Below the pieces are notes generated by a model. That model ran no database searches. It saw only the letters and a list, made by a program, of their open reading frames with translations, and was not told the origin of the DNA. A DNA stretch of 54,808 nt. Origin: Candidatus Flavonifractor intestinigallinarum (GTDB lineage Bacteria > Bacillota > Clostridia > Oscillospirales > Oscillospiraceae). Below are positions 21,466-31,574 of the stretch, one piece after another; position 1 is the first letter of the stretch; every line of letters begins with the position of its first letter. The DNA lies in contig DWXO01000094.1 of the NCBI GenBank assembly GCA_019119165.1, positions 1 to 54,808 on the forward strand, written 5' to 3'. The position numbers and the translations under genes were made by a program.

Positions 21466-21515
21466 ATCATGTCTGCAAAACGCGAAATGACCCGAACTAT
21501 GGGGAGGAATTGGAT

Positions 21516-22313
21516 TTGTACACCATCAAGAGCTACGTGTTTCCCGAGACCCTGGAGGAGGCCGACGAGCTGCTCCAGCGGGACGCCCGTACCAGCGTCA
21601 TCCTGGGGGGCAGCTGCTGGCTGAAGCTGGGCCGCCGCCGCATCGCCCGCGCCATCGACCTGACCCGACTGGGGCTGGACCAGATCGAAGTGAAGGACGG
21701 CTGTCTGGAGCTGGGGGCCTGCGTCACCCTCCATCAGCTGGAGACCCACCCCGCCGTCACCTCCCGCTTTGACGGCATTTTGGGAAACTGCGTGTCCCAC
21801 ATCGTGGGGGTGCCCTTCCGCAACTGCGCCACCGTGGGAGGCTCGGTGTTCTCCCGGTTCGGCTTTTCCGATCTGACCTGCGCCCTGCTGGCTCTGGACG
21901 CCACTGTGGTGCTCTACCGGGGGGGCGAGGTGCCCCTGGAGGCGTTCATGGCCTCCCCCATCGCCTTCAACGACATTCTGCTGAAGGTCCGCATCAAGGA
22001 TGATGGCCGCCGGGCCGCCTACCAGAGCGTCCGCCGCTCCACCACCGACTTCCCCACCCTGGCGGCGGCGGTGAGCTGCCTGGACGGCCAGTGGACCGTG
22101 TCGGTGGGGGCACGTCCCGCCCGGGCGGTGCGGTGTGAGCGCGCCGCCGCCTGCCTGAACGAGGGCAAAGGGGCAGCCGCCGCCGGACAGGCCGCCGCCG
22201 GGGAGCTGACCTACGGCACCGACCTGCGGGCGGGGGCCGACTACCGGAAGAAGCTGGCCGCCGTCCTGGTGCGCCGGGCGGCAGAGCAGTGCATGGAGGA
22301 GAACAAGGGATGA
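21516..22313 (+). CDS. Molybdenum hydroxylase FAD-binding subunit (XdhB/CoxM-like)
   Basis: A 265-residue FAD-binding subunit of the xanthine dehydrogenase/CO dehydrogenase family. I set the start at TTG 21516, 8 bases after GGAGG, giving a protein that begins M-Y-T-I-K-S-Y; a TTG two codons earlier is too close to the ribosome site. The FAD loop LGGSCW (about 30-35) and the second FAD motif RNCATVGGSVFSRF (about 103-116) are present. It hands electrons from the Fe-S subunit to an acceptor. The gene order FAD, Fe-S, Mo with ATGA overlaps at both junctions indicates one complex. Confidence 0.9.
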   Translation: MYTIKSYVFPETLEEADELLQRDARTSVILGGSCWLKLGRRRIARAIDLTRLGLDQIEVKDGCLELGACVTLHQLETHPAVTSRFDGILGNCVSHIVGVPFRNCATVGGSVFSRFGFSDLTCALLALDATVVLYRGGEVPLEAFMASPIAFNDILLKVRIKDDGRRAAYQSVRRSTTDFPTLAAAVSCLDGQWTVSVGARPARAVRCERAAACLNEGKGAAAAGQAAAGELTYGTDLRAGADYRKKLAAVLVRRAAEQCMEENKG

Positions 22314-22783
22314 AAGTCAAGATCACCGTCAACGGGATGCTGTACAACAAGCACATCCCCAACGATATGATGCTGCTGGAGTTTTTACGCAAGTACGGCT
22401 ACGTCAGCGTGAAGCGGGGCTGCGATACCAGCAACTGCGGCCTGTGTACCGTCTGGGTGGAGGGCAAGCCTGTGCTGTCCTGCTCCTACCCCGCCGCCCG
22501 GGCCGACGGCCTGCGTGTCACCACTCTGGAGGGCGTAAAGGAGGAGGCCGCCTCCTTCGGCCGCTACATGACCGCCCAGGGCGCCGAGCAGTGCGGCTAT
22601 TGCAGCCCCGGCTTCATTATGGCGGTGCTGGCCATGCGCCGGGAGCTCACCGACCCCACCGAGGAGGAGATCTCCAATTATCTGGCGGGCAATCTGTGCC
22701 GCTGCTCGGGCTACGCCGGACAGACCCGTGCCCTGCGGGCCTGGCTCCACGACAAGCCCTGGGAGAAGGAGGGTCAGGCATGA
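22310..22783 (+). CDS. Molybdenum hydroxylase (2Fe-2S) subunit (XdhC/CoxS-like)
   Basis: A 157-residue electron-transfer subunit with two [2Fe-2S] clusters. The plant-type ferredoxin cluster is bound by the cysteines in GCDTSNCGLC and the later LSC; the second by QCGYCSPG and NLCRCSGY. It relays electrons from the molybdenum site to the FAD subunit. The ATG overlaps the previous stop and a GGAGGAGAACAAGGG stretch acts as ribosome site. The size and cysteine pattern are exactly those of the family. Confidence 0.95.
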   Translation: MKVKITVNGMLYNKHIPNDMMLLEFLRKYGYVSVKRGCDTSNCGLCTVWVEGKPVLSCSYPAARADGLRVTTLEGVKEEAASFGRYMTAQGAEQCGYCSPGFIMAVLAMRRELTDPTEEEISNYLAGNLCRCSGYAGQTRALRAWLHDKPWEKEGQA

Positions 22784-25065
22784 ATCTGAAATTCGTCAAT
22801 CAGGCCATTCCCAAGCTGGACGGGGCCGCCCTCACCGGCGGCAAGGGCGTTTATACCGAGGACATGGTGCCCCGGGACTGCCTGGTGGTCCAGGTGCTCC
22901 GCAGCCCCCACGCCCACGCCCGCATCAAATCCATCCGCAAGGACGCCGCCAGCCGGGTGCCCGGCATTTCCTGCATCCTGACCTGGGAGGACGTACCTCA
23001 GATCCGCTACACCCTGGCGGGCCAGTCCTATCCGGAGCCCTCCCCCTACGACCGCTACATTCTGGAGCGCACCGTCCGCTATGTGGGGGACCCGGTGGCC
23101 ATCGTGGCCGGCCGGGACAAGGACTGTGTGGCCAAGGCCATGGGCATGATCCAGGTGAAGTACGACATTCTGGAGCCGGTTCTGGACTTTGAGACCGCTC
23201 TGGACAACCCGGTGGTGGTCCATCCGGAGGAGGATTACTTCCACCACTTCGACATCGGCGGCGACCCCAAGCGCAACCTGGTGTCCAGCGGCTGCGACGC
23301 TGACGGCGACGTGGAGGCCGCCATGGCCGCCTGCGACGTGGTGGTGGAGGGCACCTACTACACCAAGGCCAACGCCCAGGCCATGATGGAGACCTTCCGC
23401 ACCTACACCTATCTGGACCACAACCGGCGGCTCAACGTGGTGTCCTCCACTCAGGTACCCTTCCACTGCCGCCGCACCATTGCCCGTGCCCTGGGCCTGC
23501 CCAAAAACATGGTGCGGGTGGTGAAGCCCCGGATCGGCGGCGGCTTCGGGGCCAAGCAGACCCTGGTCAGTGAGCTCTTCCCCGCTCTGGTCACCCTGCG
23601 CACCGGCAAGCCCGCCAAGATCGTGTACACCCGGAAGGAGTCCTTCCAGGCCTCCAACAGCCGCCACCAGATGCGGGTCCACGTCAAGGTGGGCGCCATG
23701 AAGAACGGCACCATCAAGGCAGTGGATATGCACGCCCTGTCCAACGCTGGGGCCTACGGCGAGCACGCCTCCACCACCATCGGCCTGGTGGGCCACAAGA
23801 GCATCCCCCTCTACGCCCGGCAGGCCGCCTTCCGCTTCTCCTGGGACGTGGTATACACCAACACCATGGCCGCCGGGGCCTTCCGTGGCTACGGCGCCAC
23901 CCAGGGCTGCTTTGCCATGGAATCCGCCATGAACGAGCTGGCGGAACAGCTGCACATGGACCCGGCCCAGCTGCGGCTTATGAATCTGCCCCATGTGGGG
24001 GAAACCATGGCCGCCTACTACAACGAGCCTCTCACCAGCTGCAAGCTGCCCCAGTGCATTGAGCGGGGCATGGAGATGATCGGCTGGAAGGAGAAATACC
24101 CCTGTGTCAAGGTGGACGACCACCGTGTCCGGGGGGTGGGCATGGCGGTGACCATGCAGGGCTCGGGCATCTCCGCCATCGACACCGCGTCGGTGACCAT
24201 CAAGCTCAACGACGACGGCTACTATACCCTGATGATCGGGGCCACCGACATGGGCACCGGCTGCGACACCATTCTGGCCCAGATGGCCGCCGAAATTTTG
24301 AACTGCCCCATGGAGCGCATCACCGTGGATGGGGTGGACACCGACCACTCCCCCTTCGATACCGGCTCCTATGCCTCCAGCACCACCTATGTCACCGGCA
24401 TGGCGGTGGTGAAGGCCTGCACCGAGCTGAACGAGAAGATTGCCGCAGAGGGAGCCCGCCGCCTGAACATCCACCCCGAGCGGGCGGAGTTTGACGGGGA
24501 CAAGGTGTACGACCGCACCAATCCCGAGACGTCCATCCCCCTGGACCAGCTGGCTCAGGAGCTGGTGGTGGGCGAGGGCACCCAGTGGCTCACCGCCACC
24601 GCCAGCCATTGCAGCCCCACCTCTCCCCCGCCCTTCATGGCGGGCTTTGCCGAGGTGGAGGTGGACCTGGAGACCGGCGAGACCAAGGTTGTGGACTATG
24701 TGGGCGTGGTGGACTGCGGCACCGTCATCAACAAGAACCTGGCCCGGGTCCAGGCCGAGGGCGGCATCGCCCAGGGCATCGGCATGGCCCTGCTGGAGGA
24801 CATCAACTACGACCCCAAGGGCCAGATGGTCAACTCCACCTTCATGACCTACAAAATCCCCTGCCGCACCGACCTGCCGGAGATCCGGGTGGAGTTTGAG
24901 GAGAGCTACGAGCCCAACGGCCCCTTCGGGGCCAAGTCCATCGGCGAGGTGGTCATCAACACCCCCTCCCCCGCCATCGCCCAGGCGGTATACAACGCCA
25001 CCGGTGTGCGGGTGCGCTCTCTGCCCATCACCGCCGAGAAGATCCTCATGGGTATGGAACCCTGA
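22780..25065 (+). CDS. Molybdenum hydroxylase catalytic subunit (xanthine dehydrogenase family)
   Basis: A 761-residue molybdopterin-binding subunit. Family marks are GGGFGAKQ (253-260), AFRGYGATQG (367-376) and the catalytic glutamate E723 in GAKSIGE near the C-terminus. The protein hydroxylates an aromatic heterocycle or aldehyde with water as oxygen donor. Known relatives act on xanthine, nicotinate or 4-hydroxybenzoyl-CoA, and the substrate pocket does not allow a choice here. No in-frame UGA suggests selenocysteine; some clostridial relatives instead carry selenium as a cofactor, which sequence cannot show. Maturation genes (XdhC chaperone, moco synthesis) are absent nearby. A bidirectional terminator follows the stop. 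Confidence 0.93.
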   Translation: MNLKFVNQAIPKLDGAALTGGKGVYTEDMVPRDCLVVQVLRSPHAHARIKSIRKDAASRVPGISCILTWEDVPQIRYTLAGQSYPEPSPYDRYILERTVRYVGDPVAIVAGRDKDCVAKAMGMIQVKYDILEPVLDFETALDNPVVVHPEEDYFHHFDIGGDPKRNLVSSGCDADGDVEAAMAACDVVVEGTYYTKANAQAMMETFRTYTYLDHNRRLNVVSSTQVPFHCRRTIARALGLPKNMVRVVKPRIGGGFGAKQTLVSELFPALVTLRTGKPAKIVYTRKESFQASNSRHQMRVHVKVGAMKNGTIKAVDMHALSNAGAYGEHASTTIGLVGHKSIPLYARQAAFRFSWDVVYTNTMAAGAFRGYGATQGCFAMESAMNELAEQLHMDPAQLRLMNLPHVGETMAAYYNEPLTSCKLPQCIERGMEMIGWKEKYPCVKVDDHRVRGVGMAVTMQGSGISAIDTASVTIKLNDDGYYTLMIGATDMGTGCDTILAQMAAEILNCPMERITVDGVDTDHSPFDTGSYASSTTYVTGMAVVKACTELNEKIAAEGARRLNIHPERAEFDGDKVYDRTNPETSIPLDQLAQELVVGEGTQWLTATASHCSPTSPPPFMAGFAEVEVDLETGETKVVDYVGVVDCGTVINKNLARVQAEGGIAQGIGMALLEDINYDPKGQMVNSTFMTYKIPCRTDLPEIRVEFEESYEPNGPFGAKSIGEVVINTPSPAIAQAVYNATGVRVRSLPITAEKILMGMEP

Positions 25066-27288: not shown

Positions 27289-27314
27289 AAAAGGACCCCG
27301 CCGAAGCGGGGTCC
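27289..27314 (-). terminator. Terminator of the flavodiiron operon
   Basis: A 9-bp stem (GGACCCCGC / GCGGGGTCC, CGAA loop) with TTTT on the minus strand, 7 bases after the flavodiiron stop. Confidence 0.85.
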
Positions 27315-27321
27315 TGAACGG

Positions 27322-28533
27322 TTACTGCATGGATTCCACAATGGCGTCGGCCAGGGCCTCCAGCTCGGCGGCCTTGTCGGCGTGGAGGGCAGAGGCGATG
27401 GACAGCCGGTCGTTGAGAACGGTCATGTTCTTCAGTTCCTCATCCACGAACTTCTGCATCAGGTCGCCCGACTTGGGGGCCCAGGAGCCGTTCTCGATGA
27501 GGGCGAAGGTGCGGTTCTGAAGGTTGAGGCCCTTCAGATGCATGAGATAGTCGTGCATCACGGGGTAAATGCCCAGGTTGTAGGTGACGCTGGCCAGCAC
27601 GATGTGGCTCAGCCGGAAGGACTCGCTGACCAGGTAGGACACATGGGTGTTGGACACGTCGTACACCCACACGTTGGTGACGCCCTTCTCGCACAGCTTG
27701 GCGGCCAGAGCCTGAGCGGCGGCCTCGGTGTTGCCGTACATGGAGGCGTAGGCGATCATGACACCCTTCTCCTCCGGCTCATAGCGGCTCCACTTGTCGT
27801 ATTTGTCGATGAAGTAGCCCAGATCCTTCCGCCATACGGGCCCGTGGAGGGGGCAAATGTACTTGATCTGGTCCAGAATGGTACCGGCCTTCTTGAGCAG
27901 CAGCTGAATGTGGGGGCCGTACTTGCCCACGATGTTGGTGAGGTAGCGGCGGGCGTCGTCGATCCAGTCCCGGTCGAAGTTGACCTCGTCGGCAAACAGC
28001 TTGCCGTCCAGGGCTCCGAAGGAGCCGAAGGCGTCGGCGGAGAAGAGAACGCCGTTGGTGGTGTCGAAGGTCACCATGGCCTCGGGCCAGTGGACCATGG
28101 GGGCGGCCACGAAAGTGACGGTGTGCTTGCCGAAGGTCTGGGTGTCCCCCTCCTTCACCTCAATCAGCTCATGGCCGTCGATCTGGAAGCCGAACTGGCG
28201 CATGAAGAGGAAGGACTTCTCGGTGGAGATCACCTTCACCTGGGGCCAGCGCAGCAGGATCTCCTCGATGGAGGCGCCGTGGTCGGGCTCCATGTGGTTG
28301 ATGACCAGATAATCCAGAGGGCGGTCTCCCAGCAGATGCTCCACGTTCTCCAGCAGCTGGCGGCAGGCCGACCAGTCCACGGTGTCGAAGAGGACGGTTT
28401 TTTCGTCCAGCAGCAGATAGGCGTTGTAGCTGACGCCCCGGGGAATGGGATGAATGTTTTCAAACAGGTGGAGCCGGTGGTCGTTGGCGCCCACCCAGTA
28501 CAGATCTTCCGTCACATTGCGGACACAATACAT
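27322..28533 (-). CDS. fprA: Flavodiiron protein (FprA-type A-flavoprotein)
   Basis: A 403-residue flavodiiron protein. The N-terminal metallo-beta-lactamase-like domain has the di-iron ligands H80, E82, D84 and H85 (HMEPDH), H148, D167 and H230. The C-terminal flavodoxin domain (about 257-400) has the FMN loop ASMYGNTE. Such proteins reduce O2 to water or NO to N2O in anaerobes, taking electrons from rubredoxin. Here the gene sits 19 bases after a gene whose protein ends in a rubredoxin domain, so the electron donor is very probably that fusion. It is the second gene of the operon. Whether O2 or NO is preferred cannot be told from the sequence. Confidence 0.96.
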   Translation of the reverse strand: MYCVRNVTEDLYWVGANDHRLHLFENIHPIPRGVSYNAYLLLDEKTVLFDTVDWSACRQLLENVEHLLGDRPLDYLVINHMEPDHGASIEEILLRWPQVKVISTEKSFLFMRQFGFQIDGHELIEVKEGDTQTFGKHTVTFVAAPMVHWPEAMVTFDTTNGVLFSADAFGSFGALDGKLFADEVNFDRDWIDDARRYLTNIVGKYGPHIQLLLKKAGTILDQIKYICPLHGPVWRKDLGYFIDKYDKWSRYEPEEKGVMIAYASMYGNTEAAAQALAAKLCEKGVTNVWVYDVSNTHVSYLVSESFRLSHIVLASVTYNLGIYPVMHDYLMHLKGLNLQNRTFALIENGSWAPKSGDLMQKFVDEELKNMTVLNDRLSIASALHADKAAELEALADAIVESMQ

Positions 28534-28552
28534 GATAGTCCCTCCTTCTTAC

Positions 28553-30463
28553 TCAGGCCTCAATAAACATATCTTTCTTTTCCGCGCACTCGGGGCACAC
28601 CCACTCCTCGGGCAGGTTCTCGAACAGGGTGCCGGGGGCCACCTCGGCGTCGGGGTCGCCCCGCTCGGGGACGTACTCGTAGCCGCAGCCGCCGCACACA
28701 TACCGCTTGCCGATGGGCTCGGGCTTGGGGGGCGCGGGGCGCTTCATCTTCACCATGGGAGGCGCGGGCTGCTTCTCCCCGGTGTCCAGGGCGGCGGCCA
28801 GCAGGGGCAGGATCTCGTTGACATCGCCCACAATGCCGTAGTCGCAGTTCTTAAAGATGGGGGCGTTGCCGTTCTTGTTGATAGCCACGATGGTGGAGGC
28901 GTCCTTGATACCCTTCAGGTGCTGGATGGCGCCAGAGATGCCGCAGGCGATGTACAGATTGCCCTTGAACTTCTGGCCGGACATACCCACATACCGGTCC
29001 AGAGGCACATACTTCAGAGTCTCGGCCACCGGGCGGGAGGAGCCCACGGCGGCGCCGGCGGCCTTAGCCAGGTTCTCAATGAGCTTCATGTTCTTCTTGT
29101 CCCCGATGCCCTGACCGGCGGAAACCACACGCTCGGCCTGGCTGATGGGGGTATCCATAGGAATGCCCACGGTAAAGTCGTGGCCGTCCTTCTTCAGGTG
29201 CTCCACCAGAGCGTTGACCTGGTCGGCAGCGCTCCCCTCCTTCAGCAGGATGCGCTTACGCACGCCGGTGACGGGGGCGGGCTTCTTGGGACGGCTGGAG
29301 GAGCCGCCCTCGCTCTTGGGGGGCTTGCCCATGATGGCGGAGGAGATAACCACCCGCTGGATCTCGTTGGTGCCCTCGTAGATGGTGGTGATCTTGGCGT
29401 CCCGGTACATCCGCTCCACGTCCATACCCTTGAGGAAGCCGGTGCCGCCGAAGATCTGGACGGCGTCGTTGGTGACCTCCAGGGCGATGTCGGAGGCGTA
29501 CATCTTGGCCATGGCCGACTCGGTTCCGTAGGGCTCGTGGTGCTCCTTCAGGTCGGCGGCGGAGTAGACCAGCATCCGGGCGCAGCGGATTTTGGTTGCC
29601 ATGTCGGCCAGCTTGAAGCCGATGGACTGGTTGAAGCCGATGGGCTTGCCGAACTGGACCCGCTCCTTGGCGTATTCCACGGCGGCCTCATAGGCCCCCT
29701 GGGCGATGCCCAGCGCCTGGGCCGCGATGCCGATGCGCCCGCCGTCCAGGGTGGACATGGCGATCTTGAAGCCCTGGCCCTCCTTGCCCAGCAGGTTCTC
29801 CTTGGGCACCTTCACGTCGTTGAAAATCAGCTCGGCGGTGGAGGAGGAGCGAATGCCCATCTTATCGTAGTGGTCGCCGAAGGTAAAGCCCTCCCAGCCC
29901 TTCTCCACGATGAAGGCGGAGATACCCCGGGTACCGATGTCGGGGGTGGTGACGGCAAAGACCACATAGGTGTCCGCCTTGGGGGCGTTGGTGATGAAGA
30001 TCTTGCCGCCGTTGAGGAGCCAGTGGTCCCCCTTGTCCACGGCGGTGGTCTCGGTGCCGCCTGCGTCGGATCCGGCGTTGGGCTCGGTGAGACCGAAAGC
30101 GCCGATCTTCTCACCCTTTGCCAGGGGCACCAGATACTTCTGCTTCTGCTCCTCGGTGCCGTAGGCGAAGATGGGCCAGGAGCCCAGGGACACGTGGGCC
30201 GACAGGATGACGCCGGTACCGCCGTCCACCCGGGACAGCTCCTCCACCGCGATGGCGTAGCTCAGGGCGTCCAGCCCGGCGCCGCCGTACTCCTTGGGAT
30301 AGGGAATGCCCATCAGCCCCATCTCCCCCAGCTTGCGGATGGCCTCGTCAGGGAACAGATTTTCCTTGTCCATCAGGAAGGCCTGGGGTTTCACCTCCGC
30401 CTCGGCGAAGGCCCGGATCTTGGCCCGCAGGGCCTCGTGTTGCTCCGTGGTCTTGAATAGCAT
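28553..30463 (-). CDS. Acyl-CoA dehydrogenase - EtfA C-domain - rubredoxin fusion
   Basis: A 636-residue three-part protein. Residues 1-380 are a complete short-chain acyl-CoA dehydrogenase, with catalytic Glu363 in IYEGTNEIQ and FAD motifs GLTEPNAGSDAGG and GGTGFLKG. After a Ser/Pro/Lys linker, residues 400-565 match the C-terminal FAD-binding domain of ETF alpha (SRPVAET at 476-482, VGMSGQ at 492-497, GISGAIQH at 508-515). The last 50 residues are a rubredoxin with C590, C593, C623 and C626. No ETF beta gene is near. The layout suggests electrons pass from acyl-CoA via flavins to rubredoxin, then to the flavodiiron protein encoded next. The EtfA part also lacks the N-terminal domain that normally pairs with EtfB, so simple electron relay is likelier than bifurcation. 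A Fur/PerR-like dyad lies upstream. Confidence 0.93.
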   Translation of the reverse strand: MLFKTTEQHEALRAKIRAFAEAEVKPQAFLMDKENLFPDEAIRKLGEMGLMGIPYPKEYGGAGLDALSYAIAVEELSRVDGGTGVILSAHVSLGSWPIFAYGTEEQKQKYLVPLAKGEKIGAFGLTEPNAGSDAGGTETTAVDKGDHWLLNGGKIFITNAPKADTYVVFAVTTPDIGTRGISAFIVEKGWEGFTFGDHYDKMGIRSSSTAELIFNDVKVPKENLLGKEGQGFKIAMSTLDGGRIGIAAQALGIAQGAYEAAVEYAKERVQFGKPIGFNQSIGFKLADMATKIRCARMLVYSAADLKEHHEPYGTESAMAKMYASDIALEVTNDAVQIFGGTGFLKGMDVERMYRDAKITTIYEGTNEIQRVVISSAIMGKPPKSEGGSSSRPKKPAPVTGVRKRILLKEGSAADQVNALVEHLKKDGHDFTVGIPMDTPISQAERVVSAGQGIGDKKNMKLIENLAKAAGAAVGSSRPVAETLKYVPLDRYVGMSGQKFKGNLYIACGISGAIQHLKGIKDASTIVAINKNGNAPIFKNCDYGIVGDVNEILPLLAAALDTGEKQPAPPMVKMKRPAPPKPEPIGKRYVCGGCGYEYVPERGDPDAEVAPGTLFENLPEEWVCPECAEKKDMFIEA

Positions 30464-30489
30464 GGTGTCGTCCTCCTTGTCTGTCTATT

Positions 30490-30511
30490 TTAATCAATAA
30501 TGAGAATGATT
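30490..30511. promoter_or_regulatory. Fur/PerR-type operator-like dyad upstream of the acyl-CoA dehydrogenase fusion
   Basis: TAATCA (30490-30495) and TGATTA (30506-30511) are inverted arms around an AT-rich centre. The stretch AATAATGAGAATGATTACT agrees with the classical 19-base Fur box at about 14 positions. It lies about 27 bases before the start codon, in the expected promoter region. I could not fix -35 and -10 elements with confidence. Confidence 0.45.
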
Positions 30512-30607
30512 ACTTTGTGAGGTCATCCTAACACAATCAAGTACCATATGTCAATAGGAATTATGGCATTTTAACAAAATATTTCCCATCTGAAAACCAG
30601 GAATTAG

Positions 30608-30653
30608 AAAAGCAGACAGCGCGGCCCATTTGGTTTGGGCCGCGCTGTCTGCT
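30608..30653 (-). terminator. Terminator of the ferredoxin-NapH-like-ArsR operon
   Basis: An 18-bp perfect stem (AGCAGACAGCGCGGCCCA and its complement at 30636-30653) starts at the arsR stop and is followed by TTTT on the minus strand. Confidence 0.9.
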
Positions 30654-30949
30654 TATTGGGCGCAATATTGTTCTTTGAGCACCGCCATCAGGGCCTGAAT
30701 ACGGCTGTCCTTGATGGAATAGGTGATAAATTGTCCGTGCTTCTCCCCCTGGATCAGTCCCCCGTCCTTCAGCTTGTGCAGGTGCTGGGACAGAGCGGGG
30801 GCGGTGATGTTGGGCACCTCCTCCCCCAGCTGGCCCACCGTTTTGGGGCCGTCCAGCAGGGCGCACAGGATGAGCAGCCGGTTTTCATTGGCCATCTGGG
30901 CCATCAGTCCGGCGATGGTCTGGGCTTTTTCCCGCAGCGTTTCGTCCAT
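30653..30949 (-). CDS. ArsR family repressor, persulfide-sensor-like
   Basis: A 98-residue winged-helix ArsR/SmtB protein (MANENRLLILCALLDGP; helix-turn-helix ALSQHLHKLKDGGLI). It lacks the ELCVCD metal site of arsenic sensors. It has exactly two cysteines, C29 in the LLILC helix and C96 two residues from the C-terminus. This is the placement and roughly the spacing (67) of the dithiol pair in BigR/SqrR/YgaV sulfide or persulfide sensors. I infer a redox or sulfur-species repressor. It is the third gene of its operon, 4 bases after the membrane protein, and a perfect dyad over the operon promoter suggests autoregulation. Confidence 0.88.
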   Translation of the reverse strand: MDETLREKAQTIAGLMAQMANENRLLILCALLDGPKTVGQLGEEVPNITAPALSQHLHKLKDGGLIQGEKHGQFITYSIKDSRIQALMAVLKEQYCAQ

Positions 30950-30953
30950 CTCC

Positions 30954-31574
30954 TCACCTCCGGCAGCCGGAACAGGAGGCGCAGCCTTCTGCCGGGGCCT
31001 TGCCCGAGCGCAGGGTGCAGATCAGCTGGGTCATGGTGCCCATGGGGCAGAACACGCACCAGGTCCGGGGCTTGAAGAGCACCATGACGATGAGGCCGAT
31101 GAGGGTGGAAGTGAGCATGATGGAGTAGAACCCGAAGGCGAACTGAGCCACCCAGGGGGCAAAGAGGGTGCCGTGATAGGCCCAGTGCCAGGGCACCTGG
31201 AAGGTCCAGAACAGCTTGACGAATTCTCCAATGTCTTTGGCCCCCGCCCCCACCAGGTAGGTAGTGAAGAGCATCTGAAGGAACATGACAAAGAAAAAGA
31301 TGAGAAACCCGTACCGGAACGCCTTTGTACGCATCCACCGGGGGGTGGGTTTGTTGCGGGACAGCTTGAGCCGCCCGCCCAGCAGGGTGAAGAACTGCCC
31401 CCGGTCGCAGTAGCGGTTGCAGTAGAGCTTGCTGCCGCCGAAGATGGAAATCAACAGGGGCAGACAGAAAAAGATCATGCCCAGCCAGGCAAAGAGGATG
31501 TTGAAGAACCCCAGTCCCAGATAGATGGGGGTGACGATCCACAGATAGTCGTACCAGTGCTTTTTCCGGTTCAT
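30954..31574 (-). CDS. 4Fe-4S membrane protein, NapH/CcoG-like
   Basis: A 206-residue membrane protein with about four or five hydrophobic segments. A Cys pair at 52 and 56 (YCNRYCDRG) and another at 173 and 176 (TWCVFCPMGT), the latter followed by a short C-terminal Cys tail (GCASCSGC). The CxxCP-type motifs after membrane helices are those of polyferredoxin quinol oxidases such as NapH and NosR, but only half the usual size. It probably moves electrons between the membrane and the small ferredoxin encoded just before it (ATGA overlap). The electron acceptor is unknown; no periplasmic reductase is nearby. Control by a persulfide-sensor-like ArsR suggests a sulfur or redox stress role. Confidence 0.8.
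   Translation of the reverse strand: MNRKKHWYDYLWIVTPIYLGLGFFNILFAWLGMIFFCLPLLISIFGGSKLYCNRYCDRGQFFTLLGGRLKLSRNKPTPRWMRTKAFRYGFLIFFFVMFLQMLFTTYLVGAGAKDIGEFVKLFWTFQVPWHWAYHGTLFAPWVAQFAFGFYSIMLTSTLIGLIVMVLFKPRTWCVFCPMGTMTQLICTLRSGKAPAEGCASCSGCRR

Follow-up and report, generated by a model that had tools for sequence, protein, structure and literature searches.

What does a gene that joins an acyl-CoA dehydrogenase, a flavin domain of EtfA and a rubredoxin do beside a flavodiiron protein (FDP) gene, and what controls the pair? We addressed this question for a stretch of 54,808 nucleotides from Candidatus Flavonifractor intestinigallinarum (contig DWXO01000094.1; the whole stretch is called the window), in which the fusion gene, BCR, and the FDP gene lie on the reverse strand. 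By homology, the pair is a further member of butyryl-CoA:oxygen oxidoreductase (BOOR), an enzyme type that has already been published, and it very probably passes the electrons of butyryl-CoA to O2, giving water. The enzyme being known, the possible new point is a PerR-type box before the operon in this clade, as compared to an Rrf2 regulator elsewhere. The two genes are as follows.

28553..30463, reverse strand: BCR, the fusion gene, an open reading frame of 636 amino acids recognized by its Pfam domains, key residues and structure matches.

27322..28533, reverse strand: class-A FDP gene, 403 amino acids, 19 nt 3′ of BCR.

The interval 27322-30511 comprises the BCR and FDP genes and a portion of the 5′ leader. 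In the Pfam search, residues 6-377 of BCR matched the N, M and C domains of Acyl-CoA_dh and are butyryl-CoA dehydrogenase-like, residues 440-520 matched the ETF_alpha FAD domain (E 4e-28) and residues 587-633 matched Rubredoxin (E 8e-19), while the ETF N-terminal domain (PF01012) gave no match in BCR at E <= 0.001. The EtfA part resembles the C-terminal FAD domain of the solved EtfA chains 1efp and 5ol2, and their first domain is unmatched. BCR keeps Glu363, which we take to be the catalytic base, as well as Cys 590, 593, 623 and 626. An earlier reading of the sequence only had described this three-domain fusion with an EtfA half lacking the EtfB-pairing domain, and both points were borne out, as was the 19-nt distance that it gave for the FDP gene. 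The FDP is composed of an ODP domain (a metallo-beta-lactamase-like diiron domain) and Flavodoxin_1. Its HMEPDH motif (80), H148, D167 and H230, presumably the iron ligands, align with their counterparts in the FprA-type chain 1ycf. The bicistronic layout is read here from gene order, and the pairing is repeated in relatives.

A BCR-FDP pair has been characterised as BOOR in Fusobacterium nucleatum (Bystrom & Wolthers 2024, via the review PMC12288474, which, like the other papers cited here, was available in part). Its genes, FN1423-FN1424, encode the FDP (FN1423) and BCR (PMC12288474, PMC12630350), and the product is described as an alpha4beta4 complex with butyryl-CoA-dependent O2 reduction (PMC12288474). 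Butyrogenic gut Firmicutes also carry BOOR, according to the available parts of the same review and of a 2026 preprint (PMC13404960). The window pair shares with F. nucleatum BOOR the three-domain BCR and the two-gene order with a class-A FDP. When compared to the full-length copy of Fusobacterium vincentii, rather than to the assayed F. nucleatum proteins, identity reaches 76.6% for BCR, which is equally long (636 aa), and 67.3% for the FDP (405 aa), the gap there being 24 nt. On the other hand, the window host is an Oscillospiraceae-type gut anaerobe, and the F. vincentii upstream region has no scored Fur-family-like box at the position where the window promoter has one. The possibility of a novel enzyme was rejected once the BOOR review and the Fusobacterium copy had been found, and the idea, being published, is therefore less surprising.

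From this homology, the dehydrogenase domain would use its FAD to oxidise butyryl-CoA to crotonyl-CoA, and the electrons would pass next to the FAD of the covalently joined EtfA domain and then, singly, to the rubredoxin iron. From there they may travel through the FMN of the flavodiiron partner to the diiron site, where O2 would be reduced to water. The fused EtfA FAD domain would thus stand in for the free EtfAB shuttle. A route from acyl-CoA through rubredoxin and FDP without free EtfAB had been proposed in the sequence-only reading; as a route to O2 it is the same as in F. nucleatum BOOR (PMC12288474), while its NO part does not stand, as discussed below. The same reading had noted that no etfB is near, which holds for the neighbourhood, but the genome elsewhere contains two EtfA/EtfB sets (contigs C101 and C86), together with two separate Bcd-like dehydrogenases and an RnfC homologue. 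This gene content is consistent with the published model, where BOOR supplies crotonyl-CoA to Bcd-EtfAB and Rnf. As in the Fusobacterium model, the crotonyl-CoA formed here could go to the separate Bcd-EtfAB sets of the genome. A second, distant FDP (27% identical) is encoded beside a rubredoxin match on contig C90, and a short free rubredoxin-like match is present on C22. As compared to Bcd-EtfAB (PDB 5ol2) and CarCDE (6fah), whose acyl-CoA dehydrogenase and EtfA FAD domain are homologous to BCR, BCR has an additional rubredoxin but neither EtfA domain I nor EtfB; a bifurcating FAD site would not be expected in it.

Two elements were predicted in front of BCR.

30525..30554, reverse strand: sigma-70-like promoter, TTGACA-18-TAGGAT with an extended TG, by consensus match only.

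30496..30514, reverse strand: putative palindrome of the Fur family/PerR type, AGTAATCATTCTCATTATT, located 3′ of the predicted -10 and 5′ of the BCR start.

The -35 hexamer is unchanged in all eight aligned upstream regions (the window and seven relatives). The palindrome was first picked by eye, and since it scores only 13/19 against the canonical Fur box, we used a genus-wide box test. The own genome (85.6% complete) has a single PF01475 match, a PerR-like protein, whose gene is followed by desulfoferrodoxin and rubrerythrin genes. A box pattern was built from four perR promoters and the BOOR boxes and searched in 20 genomes of the genus, allowing at most one mismatch. It gave 72 strand matches, as compared to 3 for the reversed pattern, at 40 distinct places; an earlier pattern, with 13 strand matches against 7 in the control, had been dropped as too unspecific. 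Half of the places (20/40) are perR promoters, found in 20 of the 20 genomes (19 by the reference protein, that of G401 by coordinates), and five are BOOR promoters. Among the 15 others, five were assigned to rubrerythrin, two to rubredoxin-rubrerythrin and two to hemerythrin, the remaining six being unmatched, so that 9 of these 15 precede genes for diiron proteins that handle peroxide or oxygen. The eight reference proteins behind these assignments were partly drawn from the sites themselves, and the families were then checked with one representative per new family. At up to two mismatches, 21 strand matches (3 in the control) were obtained in the own genome, merging into 10 distinct places; four of these are upstream of perR, hemerythrin, rubredoxin-rubrerythrin and this operon, and the place on C103 was left out of the comparison with the reference proteins.

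In other gut Clostridia, BOOR has a different neighbour: an NsrR-like Rrf2 gene accompanies BCR in 123 of the 149 neighbourhoods of its cluster, according to the available part of the 2026 preprint (PMC13404960). The enzyme pair of this Rrf2-linked BOOR is the same as that of the window, whereas the window and its clade in the BCR tree described below (37 rows) are without an upstream Rrf2 motif. No Rrf2-family gene lies directly upstream of the window BCR, the neighbour being of the ArsR type (HTH_5) and placed behind a terminator-like hairpin, and the Rrf2 matches of the own genome sit on other contigs. For a wider comparison we took the best 80 of 347 genome-collection relatives, a sample in which distant relatives are under-represented. 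The window and 79 of these loci gave 80 testable upstream regions (L079 was excluded for too little upstream sequence). Rrf2 labels were assigned by motif, searching up to 900 nt before BCR. An Rrf2-like motif was found in 35 of the 80 regions and in none of the other 45, where it can have been missed in the three with less than 300 nt upstream (L011, L020 and L034) and in L072, whose upstream open reading frame is Rrf2-like by eye. All four Rrf2-labelled genes checked by Pfam were Rrf2. When Rrf2 and box were scored independently, a 19-mer with at least 13 positions of a Fur consensus occurred in 22 of the 45 regions without Rrf2 but in 1 of the 35 with it (Fisher p 3e-6, relatedness ignored).

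The same division appeared in a BCR tree, a quick one with SH-aLRT support only, of 100 rows that represent 88 different proteins. Here, the Rrf2 label was assigned before the box label, which means a score of at least 13 at -44 to -56 and no Rrf2. All 26 box rows fall within a single clade of 37 rows, the window's own (SH-aLRT 97), together with 9 rows labelled "none", 2 labelled "short" and no Rrf2 row, while the remaining 63 rows comprise 41 Rrf2, 21 none and 1 short. These counts are inflated, because some genomes entered twice, via two collections, and the long branches of L110, L111 and L146 are unreliable. Within the window's genus, 8 of the 13 full-length BCR copies are of the box form and 97-100% identical to the window, and the other 5, with 87-88% identity, have the Rrf2 form and are located in other parts of the tree. 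Since the BCR proteins of both forms belong to different clades within one genus, the distribution points to horizontal replacement of the operon plus its control.

As judged from these promoters, a PerR-type regulon that includes BOOR is likely in the window's clade. The PerR-like Fur-family protein would probably repress the operon through the palindrome at about -50, and oxidative stress would induce it. For this lineage, we give PerR control of the BOOR operon a somewhat better than even chance. The wider proposal is that BOOR exists in at least two regulatory forms, one linked to Rrf2 and the other placed in a PerR-type regulon with superoxide reductase, rubrerythrins and hemerythrin, that these were swapped among close relatives, and that peroxide, not an Fe-S signal, serves as the switch in the latter; we put its probability at roughly 0.55.

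Several observations weigh against this proposal. The PerR-like protein scores 98 bits, below the NCBIfam PerR cut-off of 180, and, although seven of ten genus genomes, the own genome included, have one Fur-family protein, three have a second. The matches at perR and BOOR are partly due to construction, because the pattern was written from those boxes. Six of the 15 other places in the genus, and 5 of the 10 in the own genome at two mismatches, match none of the reference proteins. Three of the 26 box rows (L017, L018 and L021) have poorly symmetric boxes. The window palindrome itself is weak, with two mismatches to the regulon pattern, several close relatives having stronger ones. Moreover, of the 10 genus genomes with the box form (8 with full-length and 2 with partial BCR copies), only 5 reach the pattern at the BOOR promoter with at most one mismatch. 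This last result lowered our confidence in the split and raised it in the strongest alternative, which concerns regulation only: the palindrome may be bound by another regulator or reflect chance symmetry in AT-rich DNA, with BOOR constitutive or otherwise controlled. Chance matches do arise in AT-rich promoters, and 5% of shuffles equal the Fur-consensus score of the window box. However, across the 26 rows, all from a single clade, the position of the box is constant (-44 to -56), and in six aligned upstream regions the mean column identity of the box is 0.90, as compared to 0.73 and 0.78 in the flanks, although the stretch upstream of the -35 is also conserved (0.875). Given as well that 9 of the 15 further places in the genus precede diiron genes for oxygen or peroxide, we consider this alternative possible but the less probable of the two.

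PerR-type control of BOOR was not found in the literature searched, nor was anything on Flavonifractor together with rubredoxin. In Clostridium acetobutylicum, PerR represses the O2-reducing class-A FDPs FprA1/2 (cited in PMC7482061, available in part); these are likewise PerR-controlled FDP genes, from which the window differs in that its box precedes a butyryl-CoA-fed FDP operon. As a counter-example, the fdp genes of C. difficile are outside PerR control, according to the available part of PMC11980386.

As a separate observation, divergently oriented genes for hemerythrin and a GAF-GGDEF protein flank the PerR-type palindrome at L186 (contig C40 of the own genome) and L194 (a genus relative), which suggests that oxygen binding may be tied to cyclic-di-GMP signalling in the genus.

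The proposed electron route leaves the terminal acceptor to be weighed, for which the sequence-only reading had given O2 or NO. The same enzyme could have NO as its physiological acceptor, as in other FDPs: the nearest solved FDP chains, 1ycf and flavorubredoxin chains, are labelled NO reductases, and the FDP also scores on the NCBIfam anaerobic NO reductase flavorubredoxin model, albeit far under its cut-off (201 versus 635 bits). However, NO reduction was assayed for the F. nucleatum BCR-FDP complex and none was detected, according to the available part of the review (PMC12288474), and the box type goes with peroxide and O2 genes in the genus. On the strength of the published negative, NO reduction was set aside as the main role, and we regard it as improbable; because the activity was tested and absent for the Fusobacterium complex, "O2 or NO" should read O2.

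The preferred reading, in which the FDP delivers the electrons to O2, depends on BCR and FDP belonging together, and co-occurrence with FDP genes had been named beforehand as a check that could refute it. The refuting outcome did not arise: an FDP gene starts downstream of BCR in 79 of the 80 related loci, the 80th (L067) ending 5 nt past the BCR match. The downstream FDP match exceeds 150 aa in 75 loci, with gaps of 13 to 568 nt, and in four more (L039, L040, L076 and L086) the contig breaks off within the FDP, leaving its N-terminus at the edge. Within the genus, BCR is present in 15 of 20 genomes, including all nine near-complete ones. When 398 genomes were drawn from the phylum, 190 of them had a match to BCR at E <= 1e-100. 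At most three candidates were scored per genome; among the matches listed, nearly all cover the dehydrogenase domain only, and five, the window included, span all three domains. One among the matches listed (L111:1501-3186) is a 561-aa protein with an acyl-CoA dehydrogenase and an EtfA FAD domain but without rubredoxin, and no FDP match was found in the L111 stretch examined; it is possibly a two-domain BCR relative with another acceptor.

Acyl-CoA dehydrogenases of anaerobes often act as reductases. This habit, together with the L111 protein, the short free rubredoxin-like match on C22 of the own genome and the best NCBIfam model for BCR, acryloyl-CoA reductase (score under its cut-off), would fit a BCR that runs in reverse, with reduced rubredoxin supplying the electrons for crotonyl-CoA reduction, or that donates to rubrerythrin or a free rubredoxin, its pairing with the FDP being incidental. 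We consider this very improbable, given that the FDP gene adjoins BCR in 79 of 80 loci, that electron flow from butyryl-CoA to O2 is downhill and that the complex is reported in Fusobacterium (PMC12288474, in its available part).

Some of the related loci showed features of their own. The BCR-FDP gap is enlarged to 176-568 nt in L010, L012 and L036 by GC-rich, hairpin-forming sequence, and L036 seems, by eye, to contain a similar unit about four times. The record of the Vescimonas fastidiosa plasmid pMM35_02 (L147, 142 kb) carries Rrf2-BCR-FDP, near which are a second FDP-like gene of the metallo-beta-lactamase fold (43% identical to the window FDP), thioredoxin genes, a second Rrf2 gene and ferritin.

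The operon is flanked by two hairpins.

27292..27315, reverse strand: hairpin, possible terminator, 3′ of the FDP gene, with a 10-bp GC stem and a short T-run.

30610..30654, reverse strand: strong terminator-like hairpin between the upstream ArsR-like gene and the BCR promoter.

The sequence-only reading had a terminator closing the pair. A hairpin is indeed present (-22.1 kcal/mol, z -2.7), but only 3-4 T follow the stem, and for this reason the consensus terminator scan left it uncalled; its role as the terminator of the BCR-FDP pair is plausible, not strong. On the other side, the interval 30653-31574 on the reverse strand holds an ArsR-type regulator (Pfam HTH_5), preceded by a gene whose product has a Fer4_5 match, and is cut off from the BCR operon by the strong hairpin. 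With this hairpin between them and a predicted promoter of the operon's own, the ArsR-like gene is unlikely to be the operon regulator. Further away, at 21510-25065 on the forward strand, open reading frames resemble, by eye, subunits of a xanthine dehydrogenase-type hydroxylase, namely those for FAD, 2Fe-2S and molybdenum.

In gut anaerobes, BOOR ties butyrate metabolism to defence against oxygen, and which bacteria carry it and when it is induced bear on butyrate output and mucosal survival. As a claim, PerR-type versus Rrf2 control of BOOR is specific and can be tested, and it is of moderate interest. If true, the split predicts that peroxide induces BOOR in Flavonifractor-type strains, and that Fe-S damaging signals do so in Rrf2-linked strains.

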